A stretch of 29,685 bases of DNA, from IMG/VR virus record IMGVR_UViG_3300035564_000031, positions 1 through 29,685 of that record; one strand, given 5' to 3'. The position numbers and the translations under genes are program-made. The DNA comes from a virus. Positions 5,343 through 24,943 of this stretch are shown in pieces (the stretch's first letter is position 1; every line of letters starts with the position of its first letter). The notes below the pieces were generated by a model. It made no database searches. It worked only from the letters and a program-made list of their open reading frames with translations, and was not told where the DNA came from.

Positions 5343-5882
5343 CTATCGCCTGCCCGCCTTCTGGCGGATCATGGCATCCATGTTGGAAGGTACATTGGTT
5401 GCCCCTGTCCCGTTCCCTGCGTTCCCCTGGGGGGGAGATAAGAACAGTTCGGGGTATTCGGTCTTTAGCGCGGCGAAGTCGCAATTACCCTTGCCGTCGA
5501 TCATGTCGGCTTGCTGTGCGGCCATAAATGCCAGTTTGAGGTTTCTCACCCCTGCGGCATGGGCCTTGTCCTGAAAAGCGGCTTGCTTTTCGAGGGCGTT
5601 TAGCTTGTCGGCCTGCTCAGTAAGCGCCTTTTGTGCATCGCTGCCTGCCTCTGCCTTTTTCGCCAAATCCCTTAGCGATTTCTCGGCTTCCGTGCGGGCC
5701 TTGCGTTCGCTATCCAAGGCGCTCTTTAGTCCAGCGGTATGACTTGTGTAAAGACCCTTGATTTCTTCGGGTTGCGCTTCGAGGAACTTATCCCAACTCT
5801 CAGGCATCGCGCCTTGATTGGTGGTGTTCTGTTCCTGGTTCGTTTGGGTGGTATCACCCTGGGTATTCGTCTGGTCTGGCAT
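5343..5882 (-). CDS. Capsid scaffolding protein
   Basis: A 179-aa hydrophilic protein. It has a disordered Gln/Asn/Thr-rich N-terminus (residues 1-26), a long charged coiled coil (about 55-105, rich in KARTEAEKSLRDLAKKAEA-like heptads) and a basic C-terminal end (MIRQKAGRR) that would bind the capsid interior. This is the layout of gp20-type phage scaffolds, and it lies directly upstream of the capsid gene. The ribosome site GGGGCGAG belongs to a repeated leader motif. A transcription terminator stands just upstream, so a separate promoter or read-through must supply its mRNA. Confidence 0.88.
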   Translation of the reverse strand: MPDQTNTQGDTTQTNQEQNTTNQGAMPESWDKFLEAQPEEIKGLYTSHTAGLKSALDSERKARTEAEKSLRDLAKKAEAGSDAQKALTEQADKLNALEKQAAFQDKAHAAGVRNLKLAFMAAQQADMIDGKGNCDFAALKTEYPELFLSPPQGNAGNGTGATNVPSNMDAMIRQKAGRR

Positions 5883-5909
5883 CTCGCCCCTTTTGGCATC
5901 TCGCCATTG
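5878..5909 (-). repeat. Leader repeat pair (GGCGAGATGCC), scaffold side
   Basis: Two copies of GGCGAGATGCC read on the minus strand, at 5895-5905 and 5878-5888. The second contains the scaffold start codon. The first lies in ACAATGGCGAGATGCCAAAA, which matches the leader of the gene at 6038-6295 over about 22 bp. See the partner pair at 6311-6341. Confidence 0.85.
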
Positions 5910-5911
5910 TG

Positions 5912-6037: not shown

Positions 6038-6295
6038 TTATATTTCCTTCCCACAATGCGGGCAGAACTTGGGCGTTGGCTTCGCTACTGGCAGTGGTGG
6101 AAGCCACGGCATCCGCGTTCCCATCTCAGCGGCATGGGCCAGACTTGCGGAGATTGCTACTAGCGCCTGCATCCCTGCGAATAATGGCCTTTTGGAATTG
6201 CAATACTTTCTGATTGTGCCTTCACTCTCCCCCGTGAGCATGTGAATTACATTGACATTGTTGGCATACTGCTTGCTTTGATCGAATATCCCCAT
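6038..6295 (-). CDS. Small HTH / zinc-ribbon protein with its own terminator
   Basis: The 85-aa protein has a segment VIHMLTGESEGTIRKYCNSK (about residues 16-35) that looks like the recognition part of a helix-turn-helix, and a C-terminal half ribbon FCPHCGKEI (C78, C81) like those closing many phage zinc proteins. The ribosome site AAAGGAGATGCACC is strong. It interrupts the head operon between the Mu F-like gene and the scaffold, is preceded by a candidate promoter and followed by a terminator, and is bracketed by copies of a leader repeat. This is the layout of a moron: a gene with independent control. Its target is unknown. Confidence 0.68.
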   Translation of the reverse strand: MGIFDQSKQYANNVNVIHMLTGESEGTIRKYCNSKRPLFAGMQALVAISASLAHAAEMGTRMPWLPPLPVAKPTPKFCPHCGKEI

Positions 6296-6310
6296 TGGTG
6301 CATCTCCTTT

Positions 6311-6341
6311 GGCATCTCGCCATAGTTGTCGGCATCTCGCC
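6311..6341 (-). repeat. Leader repeat pair (GGCGAGATGCC), HTH gene side
   Basis: Two further copies of GGCGAGATGCC (minus strand) at 6331-6341 and 6311-6321, 20 bp apart, between the candidate promoter and the start at 6295. The gene-proximal copy sits in ACTATGGCGAGATGCCAAAGG, nearly identical to the scaffold leader. They could be operators, or the ends of an inserted cassette. Confidence 0.82.
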
Positions 6342-6344
6342 GGT

Positions 6345-6380
6345 TTGATTGATTATACAGTCATTACCGTAAATGTTTCG
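6345..6380 (-). promoter_or_regulatory. Candidate promoter for the HTH/zinc gene
   Basis: A perfect TATAAT on the minus strand at 6352-6357, preceded by TGACTG. The -35 region is poor (GAAACA at a 16-bp spacer is the best match). The predicted transcription start falls right at the first GGCGAGATGCC repeat. Confidence 0.4.
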
Positions 6381-9682: not shown

Positions 9683-10918
9683 TCAATATCCTTGATGGGA
9701 AGTGGCGCGGCGAATCTCTCCCCGCTGTGATAATTCTGTCATCATCCAGACTTTAGCATCCAGGCGGTTCGGGCTTGCATCACCTGTTACCCATAAACAT
9801 AATTCATCTTCCAACGCCGGGAAACTGCCCACATGATGATCGTGCCCCTTTTCAGCTATTGCGCTGATCGGTTCGGCGCGAGTCGCCTTGCCCCTGGATG
9901 CGTGTACCAACTTGACCGGTACGGTAGGATCAACTTGCTTGATAACGGTTGATACCATTTCTCCGCCATTGTTCGCCTCGGCTACAATGCGATTGGCCTT
10001 TAGCTTGTGAAAGGCTGTGACTGCCGCACGCGCCCAGGTAAGAGGACTGCCCTGGACACTATCGTCTGCTAGAGTGTAATAGTCCTCGCCCTTGCGCCCT
10101 CCCGTGATAATACCTGCCTCGTCACCCTCGCTTGTGGCAGACGGGTCTACGCCTACAACGATCACATCAAGCGGGGGGGCTTTAGTTTCTCTAGACTTCT
10201 CGATAATGTCCCTGGTCCACAATGCCCCCGGAGCTTCGTCAACATCCTCCGCCTTGATCTCCATGCGATAAGCTAGGCTGGTCATATCTTTGGTAATGTC
10301 TGCCAGCGCATCCTGGTTTAGATGCGGATTGTCCATACTCGTAAAGTGGAAAGTTTTCCATCGGCCTGTTGTATCTTCCTTTGCCCGCTTGAACATTTTC
10401 GCGGCGTGTTGCGGATCATTCGCCTTATTCATGCTTCGGCTGTGCAGGCTAGGCGGGGTGTAGATAAATACCGCATCGCCGTTCTTGTCCAGCATCATAG
10501 GTGCTCCAACGGTTTCCCATGCGTCCTCGTTCATCAACTGCCACTCGTCCAGGATGAGCACATCCGCATAATCACCGCGCAAAGTATCCGCATTGAATGC
10601 GGTTTTTGCCCTAATGCGTTGCTCAGTTCCAACCAATTCGATAATATGCTCAGTCTCATTCTTCTTGAATATGCCAGCCCTGATAGGTTCATCCAATGCC
10701 TTTGTAACCTCAGTCCAGAACCTTGAAATCTGGTCGCTGGTAGGGGTAGCATATAACACGCGCTTACCTGCCAAGAACTGTTGGACGGCAAAGATAGCCA
10801 TGCCCACAGTCTTTCCCCCGCGCCGTCCGGCCCGAATGATGCGCCGCTTTGCAGTCGTGTCTATAAATGCACGTTGCATCGCGTGAGGTTCGGGCAGGTG
10901 AACGGTGTATTCAAGCAT
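9683..10918 (-). CDS. terL: Terminase large subunit
   Basis: A 411-aa protein from ATG 10918, placed 8 nt before the upstream stop with AAGGAT as ribosome site. The ATPase domain shows Walker A GRRGGKT (residues 31-37), Walker B DVLILDE (119-125) and the coupling motif FIYTPPS (about 151-157). The nuclease domain shows GVDPSATSEGDEAG with D258, then VAEANNGG (E314) and NRLDAKVW (D387), the acidic triad of an RNase H-like nuclease. It cuts and pumps DNA through the portal. The length is at the short end of the family but all motifs are present. Confidence 0.95.
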   Translation of the reverse strand: MLEYTVHLPEPHAMQRAFIDTTAKRRIIRAGRRGGKTVGMAIFAVQQFLAGKRVLYATPTSDQISRFWTEVTKALDEPIRAGIFKKNETEHIIELVGTEQRIRAKTAFNADTLRGDYADVLILDEWQLMNEDAWETVGAPMMLDKNGDAVFIYTPPSLHSRSMNKANDPQHAAKMFKRAKEDTTGRWKTFHFTSMDNPHLNQDALADITKDMTSLAYRMEIKAEDVDEAPGALWTRDIIEKSRETKAPPLDVIVVGVDPSATSEGDEAGIITGGRKGEDYYTLADDSVQGSPLTWARAAVTAFHKLKANRIVAEANNGGEMVSTVIKQVDPTVPVKLVHASRGKATRAEPISAIAEKGHDHHVGSFPALEDELCLWVTGDASPNRLDAKVWMMTELSQRGEIRRATSHQGY

Positions 10919-11237
10919 TGGGCTTATCCTTCTGGTCATACTTCACAAGCAAAGTAACAGGACCGCCCTTCTGGTCGCCCTGGATGATGTCCGGCGGTTT
11001 GCCATACGCATACGCTATAAACGCCTGCACCAATCGCGGGTCTTTCGACTTCGCCCAGGTGCGCATGATCGCATCGACAACGGTAATCTTTTCGCCCTGC
11101 TTTGTCTCGACAACCTCAGTGGCGATGGACTGCGCCAGCTTGCGCAACTGGTCAAAGCTCTTAGGCCGTCCAAGCCTGTTGATGCGCTTGTCGCCTTTCT
11201 TGAACTGAGTTTCGACTGGCGGGTTCTTGTATCCCAT
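10911..11237 (-). CDS. DUF5681-like protein, probable terminase small subunit partner
   Basis: The 108-aa protein starts with the DUF5681-type opening NPPVETQFKKGDKR followed by NRLGRPKS, then a helical body (LRKLAQSIATEVVET, VVDAIMRTWAKSKDPRLVQAFIAYAYGKPP). Such proteins occur directly upstream of large terminases in many phages and are thought to do the small-subunit job of recognising packaging sites; that function is inferred from position. It overlaps the terL start by 8 bp. Confidence 0.72.
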   Translation of the reverse strand: MGYKNPPVETQFKKGDKRINRLGRPKSFDQLRKLAQSIATEVVETKQGEKITVVDAIMRTWAKSKDPRLVQAFIAYAYGKPPDIIQGDQKGGPVTLLVKYDQKDKPNA

Positions 11238-11242
11238 CCCTG

Positions 11243-12079
11243 TTATTTCCCTGTATCCCGTTTTACCAACTGCATCCCGTAGTTGTTCACGCCATCAGGG
11301 ATGACAACGCCCTCTTTGAGAATTAGCTTGTTTCGCTTGAACGGGCGATAGTCTACATGGTGTTGCCAACGTCCCCATTTCCAAACAACGGTTGTTACAT
11401 CAGGATGTTGATGCTGTAAGGATTGCGCCATGAGCAAACGGCCGTCATCTTTGTAAAGCTCAGAGGTGTTCCCGCCTTTCATGCTCATGGTTGTGATCTT
11501 GTCAGCCAAGAATGCCTGAAACAAAACAGTACACCAACCATCCTTCAAGGCTCTAAGCGACAAGTCCGTATCTTCGTTGTAACGCCCTCGCCAACGATAA
11601 GACAGATCATTCTTGATTAGAATACAGGAATAGATGCGCGTGTTCAAAATAAACGGCGTTAGATGCTGTTTAGCTTTGGCGAGATATTGGTACTGCATTC
11701 CTGCCATTGCGATATTCTCATAACGATTTACAAAGTCCTCGCACACCTTGAAAGTAATTCCAGTATCTACTCGAACCTTTAGATTGTTATTGAGCCTGTA
11801 AAAGTCCCTGATATTGTCGTCAAGTATCCAATGGCGTTCAGCGCCAATTGAAATAGAATGTTCCCAAACCCAATTTCTAGCAGGTATAGAGCCTTGCCCT
11901 AAATTGCTAAACGGCAAAACGTAGATATTGTTAGGATCAATAACCTCGGCGTAATTATCGTATTCCTGTGGCTCAATCACCACATGAAAAGTAATATTTT
12001 TAGATGTCAGCGCCTTGACAGTCAGCCTGCTTTCCCACCTACCCTTAGAAATAACATAGATTGGATATTCAGGATTCAT
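11243..12079 (-). CDS. TET-associated-type glycosyltransferase (putative DNA-modifying)
   Basis: A 278-aa GT-A-like protein. It opens PIYVISKGRWESRLTVKALT, carries IEPQEYDNYAEVI (residues 35-47), has the likely sugar-nucleotide/metal motif WILDDNIRDFYRLN (84-97, D87 and D88), and a second acidic motif RYNEDTDLSLRALKDGWCT (166-184). This order is that of the TET-associated glycosyltransferases described in phage genomes, proposed to put sugars on oxidised bases. The upstream ParB-like gene overlaps it by 11 bp, a known pairing. No TET/JBP oxygenase is visible in this window. Glycosylation of a virion protein is an alternative. Confidence 0.72.
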   Translation of the reverse strand: MNPEYPIYVISKGRWESRLTVKALTSKNITFHVVIEPQEYDNYAEVIDPNNIYVLPFSNLGQGSIPARNWVWEHSISIGAERHWILDDNIRDFYRLNNNLKVRVDTGITFKVCEDFVNRYENIAMAGMQYQYLAKAKQHLTPFILNTRIYSCILIKNDLSYRWRGRYNEDTDLSLRALKDGWCTVLFQAFLADKITTMSMKGGNTSELYKDDGRLLMAQSLQHQHPDVTTVVWKWGRWQHHVDYRPFKRNKLILKEGVVIPDGVNNYGMQLVKRDTGK

Positions 12080-12683
12080 CTTGATACCTGATTGAAATCA
12101 GATCATTCTTTTCGACACGAGGATAATAAACATACTTTGTTTTATCGGTTATGTTTTGCTCAATCAAAGACGCAAATTCTTGAACGTCATCCTCGTTATA
12201 AAAGTGAACCAATATTGTTCTTTTCGCTAACTTGTCGCCTTGCACAAATTCGGGCATTCCAGACCATTCATCTTCTGGCTTTTGCAGTTCATCGGGTATT
12301 CCCAATTCATAACCCTTGAACCCCCATTCCAGCAGGTCTGGCACGTCCCACGCGTTCGCCAGCACATCGAAGTCCCACGCGCCGGTGTTCTTGTTTAGCC
12401 TGATATTCAACTCCTCAACTTCTCGCCCGTCAAGCTCACGCGAGGGTAGCCATGCTTCCACCTGCTTGACGTTCTCGGCGCGTAGCACGTGCAAGCGCTG
12501 ATGACCGCCTATGACGGTATGCGCCGCGTCCAGGTTGATGATGGGCTTGTCGATCATGCCAAACTTGTCAAGGCTGGTTTTGAGTTGTGCAAACTGTTCC
12601 TTTGACAGACTGCGCGGGTTCTTGTAGTAATCCGTGAGGCTTGCAACGTCAACGGTTTGCAGGGTCCAGGTGATCTCGCTCAC
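12069..12683 (-). CDS. ParB-like nuclease-domain protein
   Basis: The 204-aa protein starts at GTG 12683, overlapping the upstream stop as GTGA. It has the ParB/Srx N-terminal domain: VDVASLTDYYKNPRSLSKEQ, then LDKFGMIDKPIINLD and the signature VIGGHQRLHVLRAE (about residues 57-70). A conserved C-terminal segment (TILVHFYNEDDVQEFASLIE) forms a separate small domain. Phage proteins of this type are not chromosome-partition ParB; they accompany DNA modification genes and may bind or nick DNA. The overlap with the glycosyltransferase supports a joint role. Confidence 0.82.
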   Translation of the reverse strand: MSEITWTLQTVDVASLTDYYKNPRSLSKEQFAQLKTSLDKFGMIDKPIINLDAAHTVIGGHQRLHVLRAENVKQVEAWLPSRELDGREVEELNIRLNKNTGAWDFDVLANAWDVPDLLEWGFKGYELGIPDELQKPEDEWSGMPEFVQGDKLAKRTILVHFYNEDDVQEFASLIEQNITDKTKYVYYPRVEKNDLISIRYQDES

Positions 12684-14044: not shown

Positions 14045-14398
14045 TCACACCTCGTCGATGATAATGTCAACCCCTCCGCCCGTGATAGGGTCACAAATGA
14101 TCCCTGTCATAGACTTGATGCAGTTGTCATTCCATTGCAGCCCGTCACAAATACCATCGCACGCGCTTTTCATTCTGCTGATCAGGTTATCCAAATCCAC
14201 GCGCCTGTAATCGGGTGGGTAGAATACAAACTTCACGCTTACTCTTGCAGGTTGATAGATGGGCAAGAACGAAGTTCGCGTCGTGTAAAACGCCTCATTG
14301 CGGGCAGCCTTGACCGCTTTGGCTTTCACCGTCCAGTGTTTTCTCGAATTTGGGCTTAATTCCGATGCGGGCCAGGGCAATGAAATCGTAATTGTCAT
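14045..14398 (-). CDS. rusA: RusA-like Holliday junction resolvase
   Basis: From ATG 14398 (ATGA overlap with the preceding gene) the protein has 117 aa, the normal RusA size. It shows the family layout: N-terminal strand TITISLPWPASELSPNSRKHW, then VSVKFVFYPPDYRRVDLDNL with D68 and D70, a lysine at 77, and the helix ACDGICDGLQWNDN with D81/D85. These acidic residues bind the metal used to cut four-way junctions. Phages use it to resolve branched replication or recombination intermediates before packaging. ERF at 24137 supplies annealing. Confidence 0.88.
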   Translation of the reverse strand: MTITISLPWPASELSPNSRKHWTVKAKAVKAARNEAFYTTRTSFLPIYQPARVSVKFVFYPPDYRRVDLDNLISRMKSACDGICDGLQWNDNCIKSMTGIICDPITGGGVDIIIDEV

Positions 14399-14637
14399 TC
14401 GCACTCCCCCGCGCATCCGCACGTGCGACAGCGAAGGCGATGGTAGAAATACGCCTTCATCGTCTGCTGACATTCGTCCATCAGCACGGCGCTAACGTCT
14501 TTCGCCCCGTTCACCCGTGGCGCATCCTTGCAGTAGTAACACGCATCGGCCCAATCGATCGCCAGCCGGTAGCCGTCCTCACAGTGGCGCGTGACGAAGG
14601 ACACACCCTCCACGACGTGCGTGATGGTGCGGATCAT
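14395..14637 (-). CDS. Cysteine-rich protein (80 aa)
   Basis: The start ATG 14637 overlaps the upstream stop as ATGA, and the end overlaps the RusA start the same way. The product holds HCEDGYRLA, CYYCKDAP and a closing CRTCGCAGECE, giving at least seven cysteines, probably one or two zinc sites. No catalytic pattern is recognised. Many unassigned phage proteins of this size look like this. Confidence 0.62.
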   Translation of the reverse strand: MIRTITHVVEGVSFVTRHCEDGYRLAIDWADACYYCKDAPRVNGAKDVSAVLMDECQQTMKAYFYHRLRCRTCGCAGECE

Positions 14638-15160: not shown

Positions 15161-15362
15161 TTTCTCTCCCTTTGCAATATGCCCTGTAGTGCCCAAAATG
15201 GCACCTTCCTGCGTTTTTGTGTTTACGAGTTCATTCCTCTATGTTTGGCCCTGTTGTCGCGTTTTGCCACGTGTAGACAACGCACCAGGCGAAACGCTAC
15301 ATCCTGTTGTGAACATTGTCACCCAGCGTGAACATTGCTCACCGCCCCCGGTGCGCTGCACG
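15161..15362. promoter_or_regulatory. 202-bp intergenic region with operator-like repeats and a hairpin
   Basis: This is the longest gap in the leftward operon and it holds no convincing gene. On the plus strand GTGAACATTGTCAC (15309-15322) and GTGAACATTGCTCAC (15328-15342) are near-identical, each with GTGA...TCAC symmetry, about 19 bp apart on the same helix face range. GCGTTTTGCC (15259-15268) and GGCGAAACGC (15288-15297) can form a 10-bp hairpin with one G-U-type pair. No clear -10/-35 was found. It may bind a regulator or act in the leader RNA. Confidence 0.5.
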
Positions 15363-15815
15363 CTAACGGGATACCTCGACCTCGGCATCGGGGTTCTCCT
15401 TGCACGCTTCAAGGTACTGCGCCACAAACCGAAGTAATCCTTTGTAAGTACCCCACCCATTCGACGGCTCGAACTTTTCGAAACGCTCAGGGTCCGCCCG
15501 CAATAGCGTCAACCCAAATTCGAGATGCTCAATTAGTTGCTTGGCGCGGGTTATTCCAACTTCTTCGGGATGCCAAATAGGTTTGTAAATTCCGGCCTCT
15601 TGTGCCATAGCACCTAAGTTGTGCGTGATATTGGCCTCATAGCAATATTCACGTTCTGACGAGTTTACGGTATAAGGTTCCCGGCCAGGAAAGCGTTCAT
15701 CCCATTCGGCGCGGGTTATCTCGAAGGTTGATCCATTTTCTCGAATGAATATACGTGGTGGCGAAACAATTTCCACATTCACGCCGGATACACTCAAAAA
15801 AACATCTAGGCTCAT
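15363..15815 (-). CDS. Conserved phage protein with NGWGTY motif, function unknown
   Basis: From ATG 15815 (ATGA overlap) the protein has 150 aa. It has the pattern REYCYEANITHNLGAMAQEAGIY, WHPEE, RAKQLIEHLEFGLTLLRADP, then FEPSNGWGTYKGLLRFVAQY and a closing ACKENPDAEVEVSR. I recognise this as a widespread uncharacterised phage/bacterial family whose signature is THN...M and NGWG.Y. It is soluble, acidic and mostly helical. No catalytic motif stands out. Confidence 0.7.
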   Translation of the reverse strand: MSLDVFLSVSGVNVEIVSPPRIFIRENGSTFEITRAEWDERFPGREPYTVNSSEREYCYEANITHNLGAMAQEAGIYKPIWHPEEVGITRAKQLIEHLEFGLTLLRADPERFEKFEPSNGWGTYKGLLRFVAQYLEACKENPDAEVEVSR

Positions 15816-17524: not shown

Positions 17525-17539
17525 GATCACCTCCCTGCC

Positions 17540-17562
17540 CTTCGCGGGCTGGCTGCGCGGTC
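17540..17562. repeat. 23-bp direct repeat, downstream copy
   Basis: CTTCGCGGGCTGGCTGCGCG plus GTC on the plus strand, identical to 18477-18499. This copy lies across the stop of the Toprim gene and the leader of the next gene. Confidence 0.9.
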
Positions 17563-18466
17563 ACTTCGCCGCCTTGCGATTGCGGTAGTCACGCGCCATT
17601 TGTTCGATTTCGTCACGCATTATGCGTTCACGCTCCACGGCCTGATCCCATAAATCATCATCACGGTATCTGGCTACCGCATCCCGCACAATATCCGCCA
17701 ATTGGCGCGGCTCGATTGCATCCAGTTCCCAGGATGAATCACCAAACTTTTTTTGATACGCCTCGAAACGGGAGTCACTTTCTTTTGCGGGATTTTCCGG
17801 CGGGTTCAATATCTCGATCTGATCGAAGTTCAACGCCAATCTATCTACTTCAACATCGTTGAAATCGGTGCGTTCTGCGAATAAGTTCAGTCGGTCAAGG
17901 ACATCCCGCGTCATATCAATCCCGCTTGGGTCGTGATCGCCCAAGTAAAGAACAACGGCCTGTTTCCCGTTATTCAAAACTTCTTGTAGGTCTTGGCCGA
18001 TTTCGTAAAGGGACGAACTACTGGAATAGCCCTTGTTGGCAATGAACGGAATATCAAGTTCGGCGCATACAGGGATCAAGACCCCTTCCAGGGCTTGCTT
18101 TTCAACCATCGCCATAACAAAATAATCTTGATCTTCCCATTTGTCGATGCGGAAAGATCGCGCTGCCGATCGCAAAATACTTGCGGGGTCCGTCCAATGC
18201 GAAGGCGTGACGCGAACGCGCCCACGATCGTTAATCATCTTCCAGTCCACCAATCCCGCCAATCGCGCATCGCTGACGAGGCCGCCAATTCTCTTGTAAG
18301 ACTGCACGGTGTTTTCGACGTGCCCACGGGCGACAAGCTGGTAATAGAGCTGGCGCAAGGAAAGGTCATACCCCTGGGCGGCATACTCGTCCAGGATGCC
18401 GTTGACCGTATCAATCAGCGTCAATCCTGCTACACCAAACTTTTTATCAACGAATAGTTGTTTCAC
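17561..18466 (-). CDS. Toprim protein resembling topoisomerase VI A / Spo11
   Basis: The 301-aa protein starts at GTG 18466 (AAGGAGGTAAGAG upstream; GTGA overlap). Its N-terminal part has a winged-helix-like segment YDLSLRQLYYQLVARG (residues 33-48), with Y41/Y42 where TopoVI-A/Spo11 proteins carry the catalytic tyrosine, then GGLVSDARLAGLVDW. The C-terminal part has a Toprim-like core: VEKQALEGVL with E122, NKGYSSSSSLYEIG, and VLYLGDHDPSG with D177 and D179. In this family the Toprim binds metal for DNA cleavage. It lies after the helicase loader genes and is flanked by 23-bp direct repeats. It may nick, relax or recombine phage DNA; OLD-like nuclease is the alternative. Confidence 0.7.
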   Translation of the reverse strand: MKQLFVDKKFGVAGLTLIDTVNGILDEYAAQGYDLSLRQLYYQLVARGHVENTVQSYKRIGGLVSDARLAGLVDWKMINDRGRVRVTPSHWTDPASILRSAARSFRIDKWEDQDYFVMAMVEKQALEGVLIPVCAELDIPFIANKGYSSSSSLYEIGQDLQEVLNNGKQAVVLYLGDHDPSGIDMTRDVLDRLNLFAERTDFNDVEVDRLALNFDQIEILNPPENPAKESDSRFEAYQKKFGDSSWELDAIEPRQLADIVRDAVARYRDDDLWDQAVERERIMRDEIEQMARDYRNRKAAK

Positions 18467-18732
18467 CTCTTACCTCCTTCGCGGGCTGGCTGCGCGGTCG
18501 CACGGGCGACTAGCTCATCGATTACCACGTCCACTTCATCGATGTAGTAATCGTCGAAGTTGTGACCGTCAACCCAAGTCAGTTGCATATTCTGCCAGTA
18601 CGATTCTTGCAACTTTACGATAGCTTCCTCACGTCCATCTGACCCGCGCAGAACTTGCAATAACCCTTGTAGCTCATTGGTGGTCATGCGCTTATATGGC
18701 GAGTAGTCAAAATTGCGTTTGAAGCTGATCAT
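18463..18732 (-). CDS. Small acidic unknown protein (89 aa)
   Basis: I take ATG 18732, 1 nt after the stop of the loader gene; the longer frame from 18972 would lie deep inside that gene and reads as Arg-rich shadow sequence. The product starts MISFKRNFDYSPYKRMTTNE, has a helix LQGLLQVLRGSDGREEAIVK and an acidic segment FDDYYIDEVDVVIDELVA, and ends with the segment encoded by the upstream 23-bp repeat (ATAQPAREGGKR). Function unknown. Confidence 0.62.
   Translation of the reverse strand: MISFKRNFDYSPYKRMTTNELQGLLQVLRGSDGREEAIVKLQESYWQNMQLTWVDGHNFDDYYIDEVDVVIDELVARATAQPAREGGKR
18477..18499. repeat. 23-bp direct repeat, upstream copy
   Basis: Identical to 17540-17562. Here it encodes the last residues (TAQPARE) of the 89-aa protein and abuts the ribosome site of the Toprim gene. 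The two copies bracket that gene exactly. Confidence 0.9.
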
Positions 18733-18733
18733 C

Positions 18734-19558
18734 TTAGTAGTCCTGTCCTGTTTGGATAATCGGCCGGTTGCTCTCGCCCGTGATATGCACCACCGCAAAG
18801 CGCCCGTCCTGCATCCTGTCACCCAGCGCCCCGCCGATCTTCGACGGACTTTGGTTCGATGCAAATAGCGTGATCGTGCGCTGCCGTATCGCCTGCTGAT
18901 ACCTGGCGTTGAATATCTCGAACTGCTTCTCCTTCGCCCAGGGCGTTTGGTTGATGCGGTCCACTTCGTCAATCGCTAGGAACGAAATGTCCTTCCAACG
19001 TTCGAGCCGTCGCTCAGCCTCGTGATCGGGCTGATCCTTGTCGTAACTTCCGCGCAAGTCGTTCAGTATGTCGGTCATCTCCACGAAAGCGGCCAGGCGT
19101 CCATCGCGCAACTTCTCAGCTACTGCGATGCGCAAGATAAGCGACTTCGCAACGCCATAGTCACCCCACAGAACCACCCAGCCATAACCGTTGCGGATTA
19201 CCTCACGGACTGCGTTTACACCTTCAGCGACGTTTCCCAATATCTGCACCTTCGACCAGTTGAGCGAGCGAATCTCACTTTCGTCCAGGCCCATGCCTTT
19301 TGCGTATGCCTTCGCGTGATCGATGTTCGGGCAAAGTTTCGTTTTACCGAAGTCGGGATCGTTGATGTCGCCGTTGTCCTGGATGCGAACGTGCCCGGAC
19401 CCCCCGCATACCGGACAATCGGGATGACAAATCCCGTGATACGAGCGAGCCGCAATGGTGCGCCTAAGCGCCTCGGCTTCTTCGTCGGTGATACTGGTGT
19501 ACCGCCCGCCCATTTTGGCTTTCAAGTCTAAGACAAGTCCTTTGAGTGTGTCCATCAT
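18734..19558 (-). CDS. DnaC/IstB-like helicase loader ATPase
   Basis: A 274-aa AAA+ protein. Walker A is WGDYGVAKSL (about residues 131-140; GxxGxxKS form), Walker B FLAIDE (193-198) and sensor 1 LFASN (231-235). An N-terminal zinc segment has C44, C48, C51 and C76 in CHPDCPVCGGSGH and KLCPN, as in many phage DnaC-like loaders. Such proteins place the host or phage replicative helicase on DNA. The start ATG 19558 overlaps the initiator gene stop by ATGA, and the initiator-plus-loader pair is a standard phage replication module. The alanine in Walker A, where threonine or serine-glycine is usual, is a minor variation. Confidence 0.87.
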   Translation of the reverse strand: MMDTLKGLVLDLKAKMGGRYTSITDEEAEALRRTIAARSYHGICHPDCPVCGGSGHVRIQDNGDINDPDFGKTKLCPNIDHAKAYAKGMGLDESEIRSLNWSKVQILGNVAEGVNAVREVIRNGYGWVVLWGDYGVAKSLILRIAVAEKLRDGRLAAFVEMTDILNDLRGSYDKDQPDHEAERRLERWKDISFLAIDEVDRINQTPWAKEKQFEIFNARYQQAIRQRTITLFASNQSPSKIGGALGDRMQDGRFAVVHITGESNRPIIQTGQDY

Positions 19559-22088: not shown

Positions 22089-22435
22089 TCCCCCTTGTTG
22101 TCGATAAGTCGCTTGATCTTCTGGAAGCAGTCCCAACAAATAATTGTTTCCCGCTTCTCGATCAAGATGTATTTTTCCCATTCCTCTTTTACAACCATAA
22201 AGAATTGGGGCCACTTCTTCCCACACCTTGAGCAAAATTGCGGATACTGAATATATGGTACTCTGTCTGGGAGATCATCAAATTTTATATCCATGTAACA
22301 ATCACACGATATGAGTTGTCCGCCGCACTTCGGGCAGCGCTCCATATCACAACCGGGGCGATGCAGATGACCTTCAGTTACCCCGCAATCACCGCACGAA
22401 CTAATATCGTACTCTTTGTGAAGTTTGGTAAACAT
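22085..22435 (-). CDS. Multi-zinc-ribbon phage protein
   Basis: ATG 22435 overlaps the upstream stop as TGATG; product 116 aa. It holds several zinc pairs: CGDCG (residues about 14-18), a [18 protein letters not shown] signature, [14 protein letters not shown] and IICWDC. The [13 protein letters not shown] pattern occurs in a widespread uncharacterised phage family. It would bind two or more zinc ions and probably nucleic acid or protein. It is coupled to both the RHH regulator and the methyltransferase. Confidence 0.72.
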
Positions 22436-22632
22436 CACTCCCCCTTGACCCATTCATTGACAGACGGTATCCGGTTGACGTTCGCCACCTGTCGGTTGTA
22501 CTCCTGCTCCACAAGGAAGGCCACGAAGGAAGAACGGTTGCGGTATGACTGCCGGGCCAATTCGGTCAGGCGGTTGCTTACATCAGGTGTAAGCATGATC
22601 GGGTACAGCTTCTTTTTAGTTATGGTGTCCAT
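22435..22632 (-). CDS. Ribbon-helix-helix (CopG/Arc-type) regulator
   Basis: A 65-aa protein with a short basic start, then the ribbon-helix-helix pattern [21 protein letters not shown] (strand and helix A) and [18 protein letters not shown] (helix B). RHH dimers bind short inverted repeats. It is the first gene of the leftward operon and starts after GCAGGAGACTAAT. The perfect palindrome at 22672-22692 in its own promoter is a natural site, so autoregulation is likely. It would also control the rightward promoter. Confidence 0.85.
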
Positions 22633-22754: not shown

Positions 22755-22940
22755 ATGGACGCCAAACTAACCTGGCACAATCGCGAAGTAAAGCGCGACA
22801 TCATCCACTACAACGATGACAACACCGTTGAGATCGTTATGGCCGACACCGGCGCGCAGCTGGACATCGACCGGGCAGACCTGATCATCGTGAAGGCCAG
22901 CGACGTGCAGGCCGTGGCGGTAGGGGAGGGGGCGAGATGA
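22755..22940 (+). CDS. Small beta-rich unknown protein (61 aa)
   Basis: First gene of the rightward operon, with ribosome site AAGGAGCAACAA. The product reads KLTWHNREVKRDIIHYND, then NTVEIVMADTGAQLDIDRADLIIV, and ends in a short tail. This looks like a compact beta-barrel or OB/SH3-like domain, but no family was recognised. Being first after an operator-controlled promoter, it is likely an early gene. Confidence 0.7.
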   Translation: MDAKLTWHNREVKRDIIHYNDDNTVEIVMADTGAQLDIDRADLIIVKASDVQAVAVGEGAR

Positions 22941-23239
22941 GTTACCACGCATCAGCGAACACATACGAGATCAACGGGGCGGCATCGCTCCACCGGCGCA
23001 TCGAGGCAGAGGAAGCGGCGAGGGAGTTGGCCCTGGTTGAGAGCAACACCCTGGCCGACCTGATCGGCTACGAGTCGCCAGCTTGGGAGACCTTCTGGCG
23101 CACCGTACCGGAGCCGTCCACGAACGTCACGATCCTGGCGATGCTCCAGGCCGAGATCAAGCGCATCAATGACGCGGGGGTGATCGCGGACCACGAGGAT
23201 GACTTGCGGCTATATGCCGACCTGAGAAGGGGTGGGTGA
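22937..23239 (+). CDS. Unknown helical protein (100 aa)
   Basis: ATGA overlap with the preceding gene; ribosome site GGGGAGGGGGCGAG. The protein is helical and acidic: LHRRIEAEEAARELALVESN, WETFWRTVPEPST, ILAMLQAEIKRINDAG, DDLRLYADLRRGG. Its leader GGGGCGAGATG is the same string as that at the scaffold start. The last codons and stop form one copy of a 13-bp repeat (23227-23239). Confidence 0.65.
   Translation: MSYHASANTYEINGAASLHRRIEAEEAARELALVESNTLADLIGYESPAWETFWRTVPEPSTNVTILAMLQAEIKRINDAGVIADHEDDLRLYADLRRGG
23227..23239 (+). repeat. 13-bp repeat AAGGGGTGGGTGA, first copy
   Basis: Identical to 23339-23351. Each copy encodes the end of a gene (GG plus stop) and the ribosome site of the next, so the pair brackets the 36-aa gene. 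Confidence 0.85.
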
Positions 23240-23488: not shown

Positions 23489-23688
23489 AACCATCCAAAA
23501 AAGAAATGCGCGGGCATATCGGCTGGTGGCACATCTGGATTTATAACGGCATCTGCTACCTGTGTACCCCCAAACAGACCATCGCCATTGATTACATCGA
23601 GAAAATCAGCGACAAGGGGTTTGATGAAATCTCCGATATTGTCGAAACGATGGGGAAAAAGGTTGACATGAAAGGACAACGGAAATGA
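23485..23688 (+). CDS. Small unknown protein (67 aa)
   Basis: ATGA overlap on both sides. It reads KEMRGHIGWWHIWIYNGICYLCTPKQT, then YIEKISDKGFDEISDIVETMG and a basic end. The aromatic, cysteine-bearing first half looks like a small folded domain. No family was recognised. A ribosome site (AAAGGGCCGAA) lies in the end of the upstream gene. Confidence 0.62.
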   Translation: MKPSKKEMRGHIGWWHIWIYNGICYLCTPKQTIAIDYIEKISDKGFDEISDIVETMGKKVDMKGQRK

Positions 23689-24140
23689 GCAACCAATTGG
23701 CAGTTCGCCCAGAGTTGGGCTATTGCTCATTCTGCGGAAAGGAATATGTGCGCTCCCCCCGGCACGTAAATCAAAAATTTTGTGGCCCCAATTGCAGATA
23801 TAAAACATGGAGAAGGGAACACAACGAAGAAGCGAGGGCTATGGGGAGAGCGCATAACGCGAGATGGAAAACGAAAAATCCAGATAAGAGCAAAATAGCA
23901 GAATGGAAAAACAAAGGGATAGTCGACTTGGACCATGCCCTAGCGCTTTGGAAAGGTCCGCATCAATGCTACATCTGCGGGAAAACAAGCGGAAGATTTT
24001 GCGTAGATCACGATCATAAAAACGGATTGACAAGAGGACTTCTCTGCGATGATTGCAATGTTGGGTTAGGGAAGTTCTTAGACAACATGGACGTTCTTAT
24101 AAAAGCAGTTGCATATATCGAATTTTGGAGGACCCAATGA
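23685..24140 (+). CDS. HNH endonuclease, recombination endonuclease VII type
   Basis: The 151-aa protein has an N-terminal zinc part (YCSFCGKEY and QKFCGPNCRY, residues 13-39) and a C-terminal endonuclease VII-like core: CYICGK (95-100), CVDHDHKNGLTRGLLCDDCN (106-125) and GLGKFLDN. The cysteine pairs bind structural zinc, and H109/D110/H111 is the nuclease motif. In phages such nucleases cut branched DNA or act as homing enzymes. Its position just before ERF, with ATGA coupling, fits recombination. RusA is a second resolvase in the same window. Confidence 0.87.
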   Translation: MSNQLAVRPELGYCSFCGKEYVRSPRHVNQKFCGPNCRYKTWRREHNEEARAMGRAHNARWKTKNPDKSKIAEWKNKGIVDLDHALALWKGPHQCYICGKTSGRFCVDHDHKNGLTRGLLCDDCNVGLGKFLDNMDVLIKAVAYIEFWRTQ

Positions 24141-24943
24141 ACAAGTCAGAGACTATCAACGATCTGGCAACCGCATTATCCGTAGCGCAGGGCCAAATGA
24201 CTGCCGCTAAGATGGGCGCAGAAAACCCGTTCTTGCATAACCACTACGCGGACCTGGGCAGCGTCATTCAGGCCGCCAAAAAGCCGCTTGCAGATAACGG
24301 ACTGAGCTACTCCCAGCATCCAGAATTGAACGGCGGGGCTGTCACAATCACCACGATCCTGATGCACTCAACCGGCCAATGGATTGAAAGCACCATCACG
24401 CTGGGGTTAGGTGAGGGGAAGGGAATGAGCCAGGCTCAACAGATGGGCAGTGTGATTACCTACCTTCGCCGGTATTCACTCTCCGCGATCCTGGGCATCT
24501 ACGCTGATGAGGATACGGACGGCAACGACAAGACCACCATCCCCCACAACGGCCAGGCCCGCCCAGCGCAGACGATCACGCAGACCGTCAACCCCCAGGC
24601 TATCAAGCCGCTGGCCGCGCCCGTCTCACTCACGGGTAAGCCCGCCGTCATCACCGAGGCGAGGGTGGAGGAAGCCCAGGCCACCGTAGATGCACCAGCT
24701 ACCCAATGGCCTGAAGCCGTCCTGCAATACTTCGTGGACACCTACAAACTCCGCGCCAAGAACCAGGCTGAGAACATGCTCAACCTATCGGACTACCCGA
24801 AGGACACGCCCGTTGTTGTCCTGGCTAAATGGGTGGAAGTCTATAAATCCTATCGTGCCATCCAGGGTGAGGGTGGGGTGGGTAAGTACACCACGCACGA
24901 AGCGGCGCAATTGGCAACCACGCACATGAACGAGAAAGGATAA
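24137..24943 (+). CDS. erf: ERF-family single-strand DNA annealing protein
   Basis: From ATG 24137 (ATGA overlap, TTTGGAGGACCC ribosome site) the protein has 268 aa. The ERF domain covers residues 1-135: LATALSVAQGQMTAAKMGAEN, HYADLGSVIQAAKKPLADNG, HSTGQWIESTITLGLGE, QMGSVITYLRRYSLSAILGI and DEDTDG. The rest is a Pro/Ala linker and a C-terminal helical part. These proteins anneal complementary single strands for phage recombination and genome circularisation. It sits beside an endonuclease VII-like gene, with RusA on the other operon. Confidence 0.92.
   Translation: MNKSETINDLATALSVAQGQMTAAKMGAENPFLHNHYADLGSVIQAAKKPLADNGLSYSQHPELNGGAVTITTILMHSTGQWIESTITLGLGEGKGMSQAQQMGSVITYLRRYSLSAILGIYADEDTDGNDKTTIPHNGQARPAQTITQTVNPQAIKPLAAPVSLTGKPAVITEARVEEAQATVDAPATQWPEAVLQYFVDTYKLRAKNQAENMLNLSDYPKDTPVVVLAKWVEVYKSYRAIQGEGGVGKYTTHEAAQLATTHMNEKG

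Follow-up and report, generated by a model that had tools for sequence, protein, structure and literature searches.

The window analysed here, the 29,685 nucleotides of the virus record IMGVR_UViG_3300035564_000031, is a contig without end repeats that carries a gene for a 301-residue toprim-type protein, preceded by a helicase loader gene and an 89-aa ORF and followed by a small gene of 65 aa from its ATG, or 67 aa from a GTG at 17530. The genes of the locus and both copies of the repeat that brackets the toprim-type gene all lie on the minus strand, and the GTG start of this gene (18466-18464) overlaps the TGA of the 89-aa ORF. The toprim identity proposed in the initial annotation is consistent with the invariant glutamate E122 and a GDHDPSG motif, both kept in an alignment with four viral relatives (44-53% identity), but sequence searches with the 301-aa protein in Pfam, NCBIfam and the PDB returned no match supporting it. 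The PHROGs profile that covers the protein full length (phrog_6247, residues 1-297) is named 'DNA topoisomerase', and we take this as a family name only, for a predicted topoisomerase. The pattern of E122 and GDHDPSG is presumably that expected of the toprim fold. An AlphaFold model of the 301-aa protein has a pLDDT of 79.9. Both GC and GC3 of the gene are ordinary for the window, and recent foreign entry is therefore not indicated; PADLOC gave no match that would assign a defence role.

The direct repeat, CCTTCGCGGGCTGGCTGCGCGGTC, is identical throughout its two copies and is 24 bp long, one more than the 23 bp first reported. No other non-overlapping exact direct repeat in the window is as long (the runner-up has 16 bp), and when start flanks were compared with stop flanks for 347 ORFs of the window and four related virus records, the toprim gene gave a match of 24 nt and every other ORF one of 12 nt at most. 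As the initial annotation had noted, the upstream copy is also coding: it supplies the codons for the C-terminal ...TAQPAREGG of the 89-aa protein, and its final four bases, AAGG, form the first part of the Shine-Dalgarno sequence AAGGAGG of the toprim gene. The left junction as a whole specifies the 14 C-terminal residues of that protein, ARATAQPAREGGKR. The downstream copy opens with the last two bases, GA, of the toprim stop codon TGA (17563-17561) and directly precedes the Shine-Dalgarno sequence GGGAGGTGATC of the next gene.

Relatives of the toprim gene are present in 76 phage records, and their contexts in six of these differ, being terminase genes, thymidylate synthase or hypothetical genes. 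Around ten relatives (the six phage records and four from IMG/VR) flanking repeats were unremarkable, the longest being 10 nt, so the repeat does not travel with the gene. It is a feature of the locus and not of the toprim gene.

Table 1 Features of the window at the toprim locus and at the other gene junctions, with candidate recombination enzymes
Feature	Coordinates	Strand	Basis
Downstream gene, 65 aa	17327..17524	-	86% identity to G001 over alignment
Extended right junction, 44 nt	17530..17573	-	91% identical to G001 copy c; window vs G001 comparison
Right (downstream) repeat copy	17539..17562	-	exact match; orthologous to G001 copy c
301-aa toprim-type protein, slot content	17561..18466	-	phrog_6247 DNA topoisomerase, E 2.7e-106
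Extended left junction, 46 nt	18462..18507	-	93.5% identical to G001; blastn E 1e-12 to 3e-13
89-aa upstream ORF	18463..18732	-	translation
Left (upstream) repeat copy	18476..18499	-	exact match to 17539-17562; orthologous to G001 copy a
DnaC-like helicase loader, left neighbour of slot	18734..19558	-	phrog_50 E 1e-19
Third junction, 31 nt over stop, Shine-Dalgarno and ATG	22433..22463	-	identical to G001; shared-island comparison of window and G001
Second junction, empty state, single copy between 61-aa and 100-aa genes	22890..22941	+	52 nt identical to G001
RusA-like Holliday junction resolvase	14045..14473	-	phrog_34 E 9e-22; PF05866 E 8e-4, below its cut-off
Endonuclease VII-like junction resolvase	23685..24140	+	PF02945 E 3e-15
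Erf-family single-strand annealing protein, candidate recombinase at repeats	24053..24943	+	PF04404 E 4.8e-24; phrog_2324 E 4e-40

The same locus in a related virus

In a scan of IMG/VR the 24-mer was found in one other contig only, IMGVR_UViG_3300035564_000037 (hereafter G001), which is 37,835 bp long, probably complete because it has a 123-bp terminal repeat, and syntenic with the window over the early region, with patches of 70-95% identity. The 17-nt core of the repeat occurs three times in G001, always at the equivalent of the toprim locus. Read downstream, copy a follows a DnaB-like helicase with the C terminus ...ARATAQPAREGGVR; copies a and b enclose a 74-aa ORF whose product ends in ...AQPAREGGMR, and copies b and c an N6/N4 methyltransferase. 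Past copy c lie a 65-aa ORF and then the ortholog of the window's 65/67-aa gene, which delimits the slot on its right in both phages. Neither the toprim gene (phrog_6247) nor a homologue of the DnaC-like loader is present in G001.

The copies are of a left and a right type, which diverge after the core. The left edges (window copy and copy a of G001) have an exact match of 35 nt and agree at 44 of 50 nt overall; the right edges (window copy and copy c) have one of 27 nt, agree at 33 of 34 nt and have a distinct continuation in common, GGGCAGGGAGG. Since the two types differ and each is matched across the phages, the edges are orthologous and older than what they enclose; to judge from this comparison, both edge repeats predate the split of the window phage and G001, and the contents between them have changed. 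The left-edge ORFs of the two phages were unrelated in a blastp comparison of the flanking proteins except for the repeat-coded tail ARATAQPAREGG, and the tail of the 89-aa protein is also carried by the unrelated DnaB-like helicase of G001. At the right edge, two unrelated genes have their TGA stop codon at the precise point from which the sequences are identical.

Further relatives were sought in several collections. A DNA search with the locus gave no match among phage and plasmid collections, the conserved neighbours used as bait in IMG/VR and GTDB genomes recovered G001 only, and the relatives G002-G004 have ParB, terminase or single genes in common with the window and do not possess the slot. 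The 20-nt core had 19 matches in genome contigs, all in other contexts; these and the matches to a looser core in IMG/VR were rejected as further copies, their contexts being unrelated, and were judged to be due to chance. A 22-nt repeat pair in G001 (at 10044 and 10262) was also set aside, as it encloses no whole gene. With one informative relative, exchange at the toprim locus rests on a single pairwise comparison, that of the window with G001.

Other observations concern the host and further genes. The large terminase (9683-10939) has its best phage match, at 68% identity and far ahead of all others, in that of Methanosarcina virus MetMV (MK170447), and among 14 control genomes phrog_6247 found a match in Methanosarcina acetivorans only; the host may be a methanogen, though G001 has a bacterial-type DnaB helicase. 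The ParB-like protein (12069-12683) has about 140 N-terminal residues in common with a 427-aa ParB-methyltransferase of G001 (86%) and then diverges from it, a joint at the level of domains within one gene. A glycosyltransferase (11243-12079) encoded between ParB and the small terminase is absent from G001 and similar to beta-glucosyl-HMC-alpha-glucosyltransferase (phrog_842, E 1e-41), which suggests modified DNA bases or another exchanged gene.

Further junctions between the two phages

At the second junction the window carries a single copy that spans the last codons of one gene (KASDVQAVAVGEGAR), a Shine-Dalgarno sequence and an ATGA overlap, with the 100-aa gene directly after it. G001 has an extra 131-aa gene here (ending ...GEGTR), then a near-copy, GGGGAGGGGRCGAGATGAG (18 of 19 nt of the core), and then the 100-aa homologue. 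The junction is, as the comparison reads, an empty and occupied pair, with one copy and no gene in the window versus two near-copies and a gene in G001. The initial annotation had suggested looking in relatives for the toprim locus with its gene missing and one repeat left; no such single-copy empty site was found at that locus, but its counterpart is seen at this one. At the third junction the following gene is a 122-aa ORF in the window versus an unrelated 355-aa methyltransferase in G001, a gene that has apparently been swapped exactly at its ATG.

Of the other repeat-flanked genes in the window to which the initial annotation referred, one further case was found and no more, with copies at 5892-5910 and 6308-6326 around an 85-aa gene. 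The element GGCGAGATGCC (5875-5910 and 6308-6348) has two occurrences ahead of this gene (minus strand, 6038-6295) and two more where the next one starts (5343-5882), with a terminator-like hairpin and T run between the element sites around the 85-aa gene. An exact 16-bp repeat, TTTGGCATCTCGCCAT, lies at 5892 and 6308, and the arrangement has the architecture of the toprim locus in another sequence. Elsewhere, 66 nt (15305-15370) are 95% identical to G001 across the end of a gene that is itself not conserved, perhaps a further junction island.

A probable gene slot bounded by junction repeats

We consider it likely that the locus is a gene slot, the contents of which are exchanged by homologous recombination at the junction repeats. 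The comparison of the two phages shows the exchange as such, of which homologous recombination would be the cause, the Erf annealase the putative agent and single-strand annealing probably the route. The slot lies between the replication genes and the conserved small gene, and a junction element some 35-46 nt long forms each of its two edges, always with the Shine-Dalgarno sequence of the next gene. In a left-type copy this is combined with the last codons of the previous gene and the GTGA stop/start overlap, whereas a right-type copy opens within the stop codon that ends the last gene of the slot. Recombination between the edge copies of two co-infecting phages, or of copies within one genome, would then replace, add or remove whole ORFs and leave stops, translational coupling and ribosome sites intact, the present contents being the toprim gene in the window phage and the 74-aa ORF with the methyltransferase in G001.

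When the DNA between any pair of copies, of the window or of G001, was deleted in silico, the upstream ORF still ended correctly, with changes confined to its last residues, and the downstream start and Shine-Dalgarno sequence were preserved; in the window, the 89-aa ORF becomes one of 94 aa that overlaps the next start by 14 nt. The initial annotation had anticipated this outcome, in that loss of the gene was said to leave one repeat and an intact downstream ribosome site. Its proposal that a cassette entered or can leave through the repeats agrees with G001, where the same repeat at the same locus encloses different genes and no toprim gene, but the data show replacement of contents in a two-edged slot and not insertion into a single repeat. 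The feature it described is true and its logic largely right; the repeat marks a slot with two old edges and is not the footprint of the toprim gene.

The identity required by recombinases has been put at about 23-27 bp for Red-beta and 31-34 for RecA, and an Erf recombines diverged sequence efficiently (PMC3945230). The identity available here, 24 nt within the window and 27 and 35 exact nt between the phages, lies in this range. The window encodes two candidate junction resolvases besides its Erf-family protein. A PF04404 search found no recognisable Erf in G001, which encodes an unassigned 292-aa protein (phrog_19042) in the region corresponding to the window's Erf.

It is conceivable, although unlikely, that the repeat serves chiefly as an element for translation initiation or coupling, its repetition and the differing genes being side effects. 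A Shine-Dalgarno sequence directly follows or overlaps each of the five copies (two in the window, three in G001), before genes of different families, and the left types place AAGGAGG about 6 nt before a GTG that forms a GTGA stop/start overlap. Furthermore, in both phages the right type folds into the hairpin GCCC-GCGAA-GGGC (z about -2). Two of the three left copies, however, are no more stably folded than shuffled sequences, no RNA structure conserved across all copies was found and Rfam gave no match, while the 14-20 conserved nt upstream of the Shine-Dalgarno sequence lie outside it. Moreover, there are only two and three copies, all in one slot, and the other genes of both phages lack the repeat. 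The two roles, in translation and in recombination, are compatible.

Far less probable is that the toprim gene inserted by itself and duplicated its target sequence in the manner of a transposon or homing element. An exact direct repeat around one gene and the many different contexts of the toprim relatives would fit such an event, but the family search gives the gene no transposase or homing nuclease identity, its relatives elsewhere lack flanking repeats, and the two copies, which differ in type, each have an ortholog among the edges of a phage that lacks the toprim gene. These orthologous edges, which enclose other genes in G001, largely refute self-insertion. We give slightly less credence again to a site-specific recombinase acting on the repeat as an att-like, integron-like site, for which the repeat-ORF-repeat-ORF-repeat array of G001 would be suitable. 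Neither record encodes a tyrosine integrase or serine resolvase (PF00589 and PF00239 absent from the window, which may be incomplete, and from G001, with positive controls), dyad symmetry common to all copies of the core was not found, and the second and third junctions have sequences quite different from the toprim-locus repeat. Finally, chance or an assembly artefact, which might be suspected in one metagenomic contig, is scarcely credible against 24 bp observed versus a maximum of 19 bp (usually 14-15) in 200 third-order Markov copies of the window, and is refuted already by the three occurrences of the element in the independent contig G001.

Exchange at junction repeats shares individual features with several known systems. 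Among the closest are the Start-Associated Sequences (SAS/ESAS) of Cluster K mycobacteriophages, 13-bp elements with the consensus GGGATAGGAGCCC whose 11-19 copies are distributed through half of the genome, mostly in gaps longer than 50 bp, and for which a role in translation has been proposed (PMC3203893). Like these, the junction repeats are short, phage-specific elements in one orientation that contain a Shine-Dalgarno sequence and precede the starts of genes from different families, and an upstream stop codon is included in some SAS as well. They differ in that two to three longer copies lie in one slot, the left type is coding in the upstream gene, and the copies bracket exchangeable genes. 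The SAS consensus itself is at chance level in the window (one match with two mismatches versus 0.63 expected).

Gene cassettes of T4-type phages are also shuffled at repeated elements, as reportedly described by Arbiol in 2010 and Comeau in 2014. These PeSLs (promoter early stem-loops) comprise an early promoter and a stem-loop, as cited in PMC4503421. As far as that citation portrays them, in both systems the homology for exchanging cassettes is provided by expression signals that recur between genes, but the signal here is translational, with no promoter-like site on the repeat (a scan for the sigma-70 type gave none at either window copy). Of the copies here, those of the right type form a hairpin. 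Mosaic joints made by Rad52-like phage recombinases mostly involve longer homologous regions in the joints that were tested (PMC3945230). Exchange at short identity by phage annealing proteins, Erf included, is common to both, whereas the identity here is a gene junction of 24-46 nt between unrelated ORFs. The halovirus HF2 has intergenic repeats of 58 and 29 bp that bear promoters (PMC8707807); these are likewise repeats of a tailed virus at gene boundaries, but those described here are start and stop junctions around an exchanged gene.

More tentatively, and with some doubt on our part, the junctions may be kept in this phage group as in-frame recombination linkers, selection acting on the junction and not on the adjacent genes, so that ORFs would be traded singly, with codon precision and at several loci. 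Such a linker model is directly testable, since the joints are short and well delimited and occur in two phages. It touches on the old question of how single genes are swapped in dense, overlapping operons, by way of conserved linkers or by illegitimate recombination followed by selection. Where homology lies exactly on the translation junction of unrelated genes, an exchange would yield a working operon at once.
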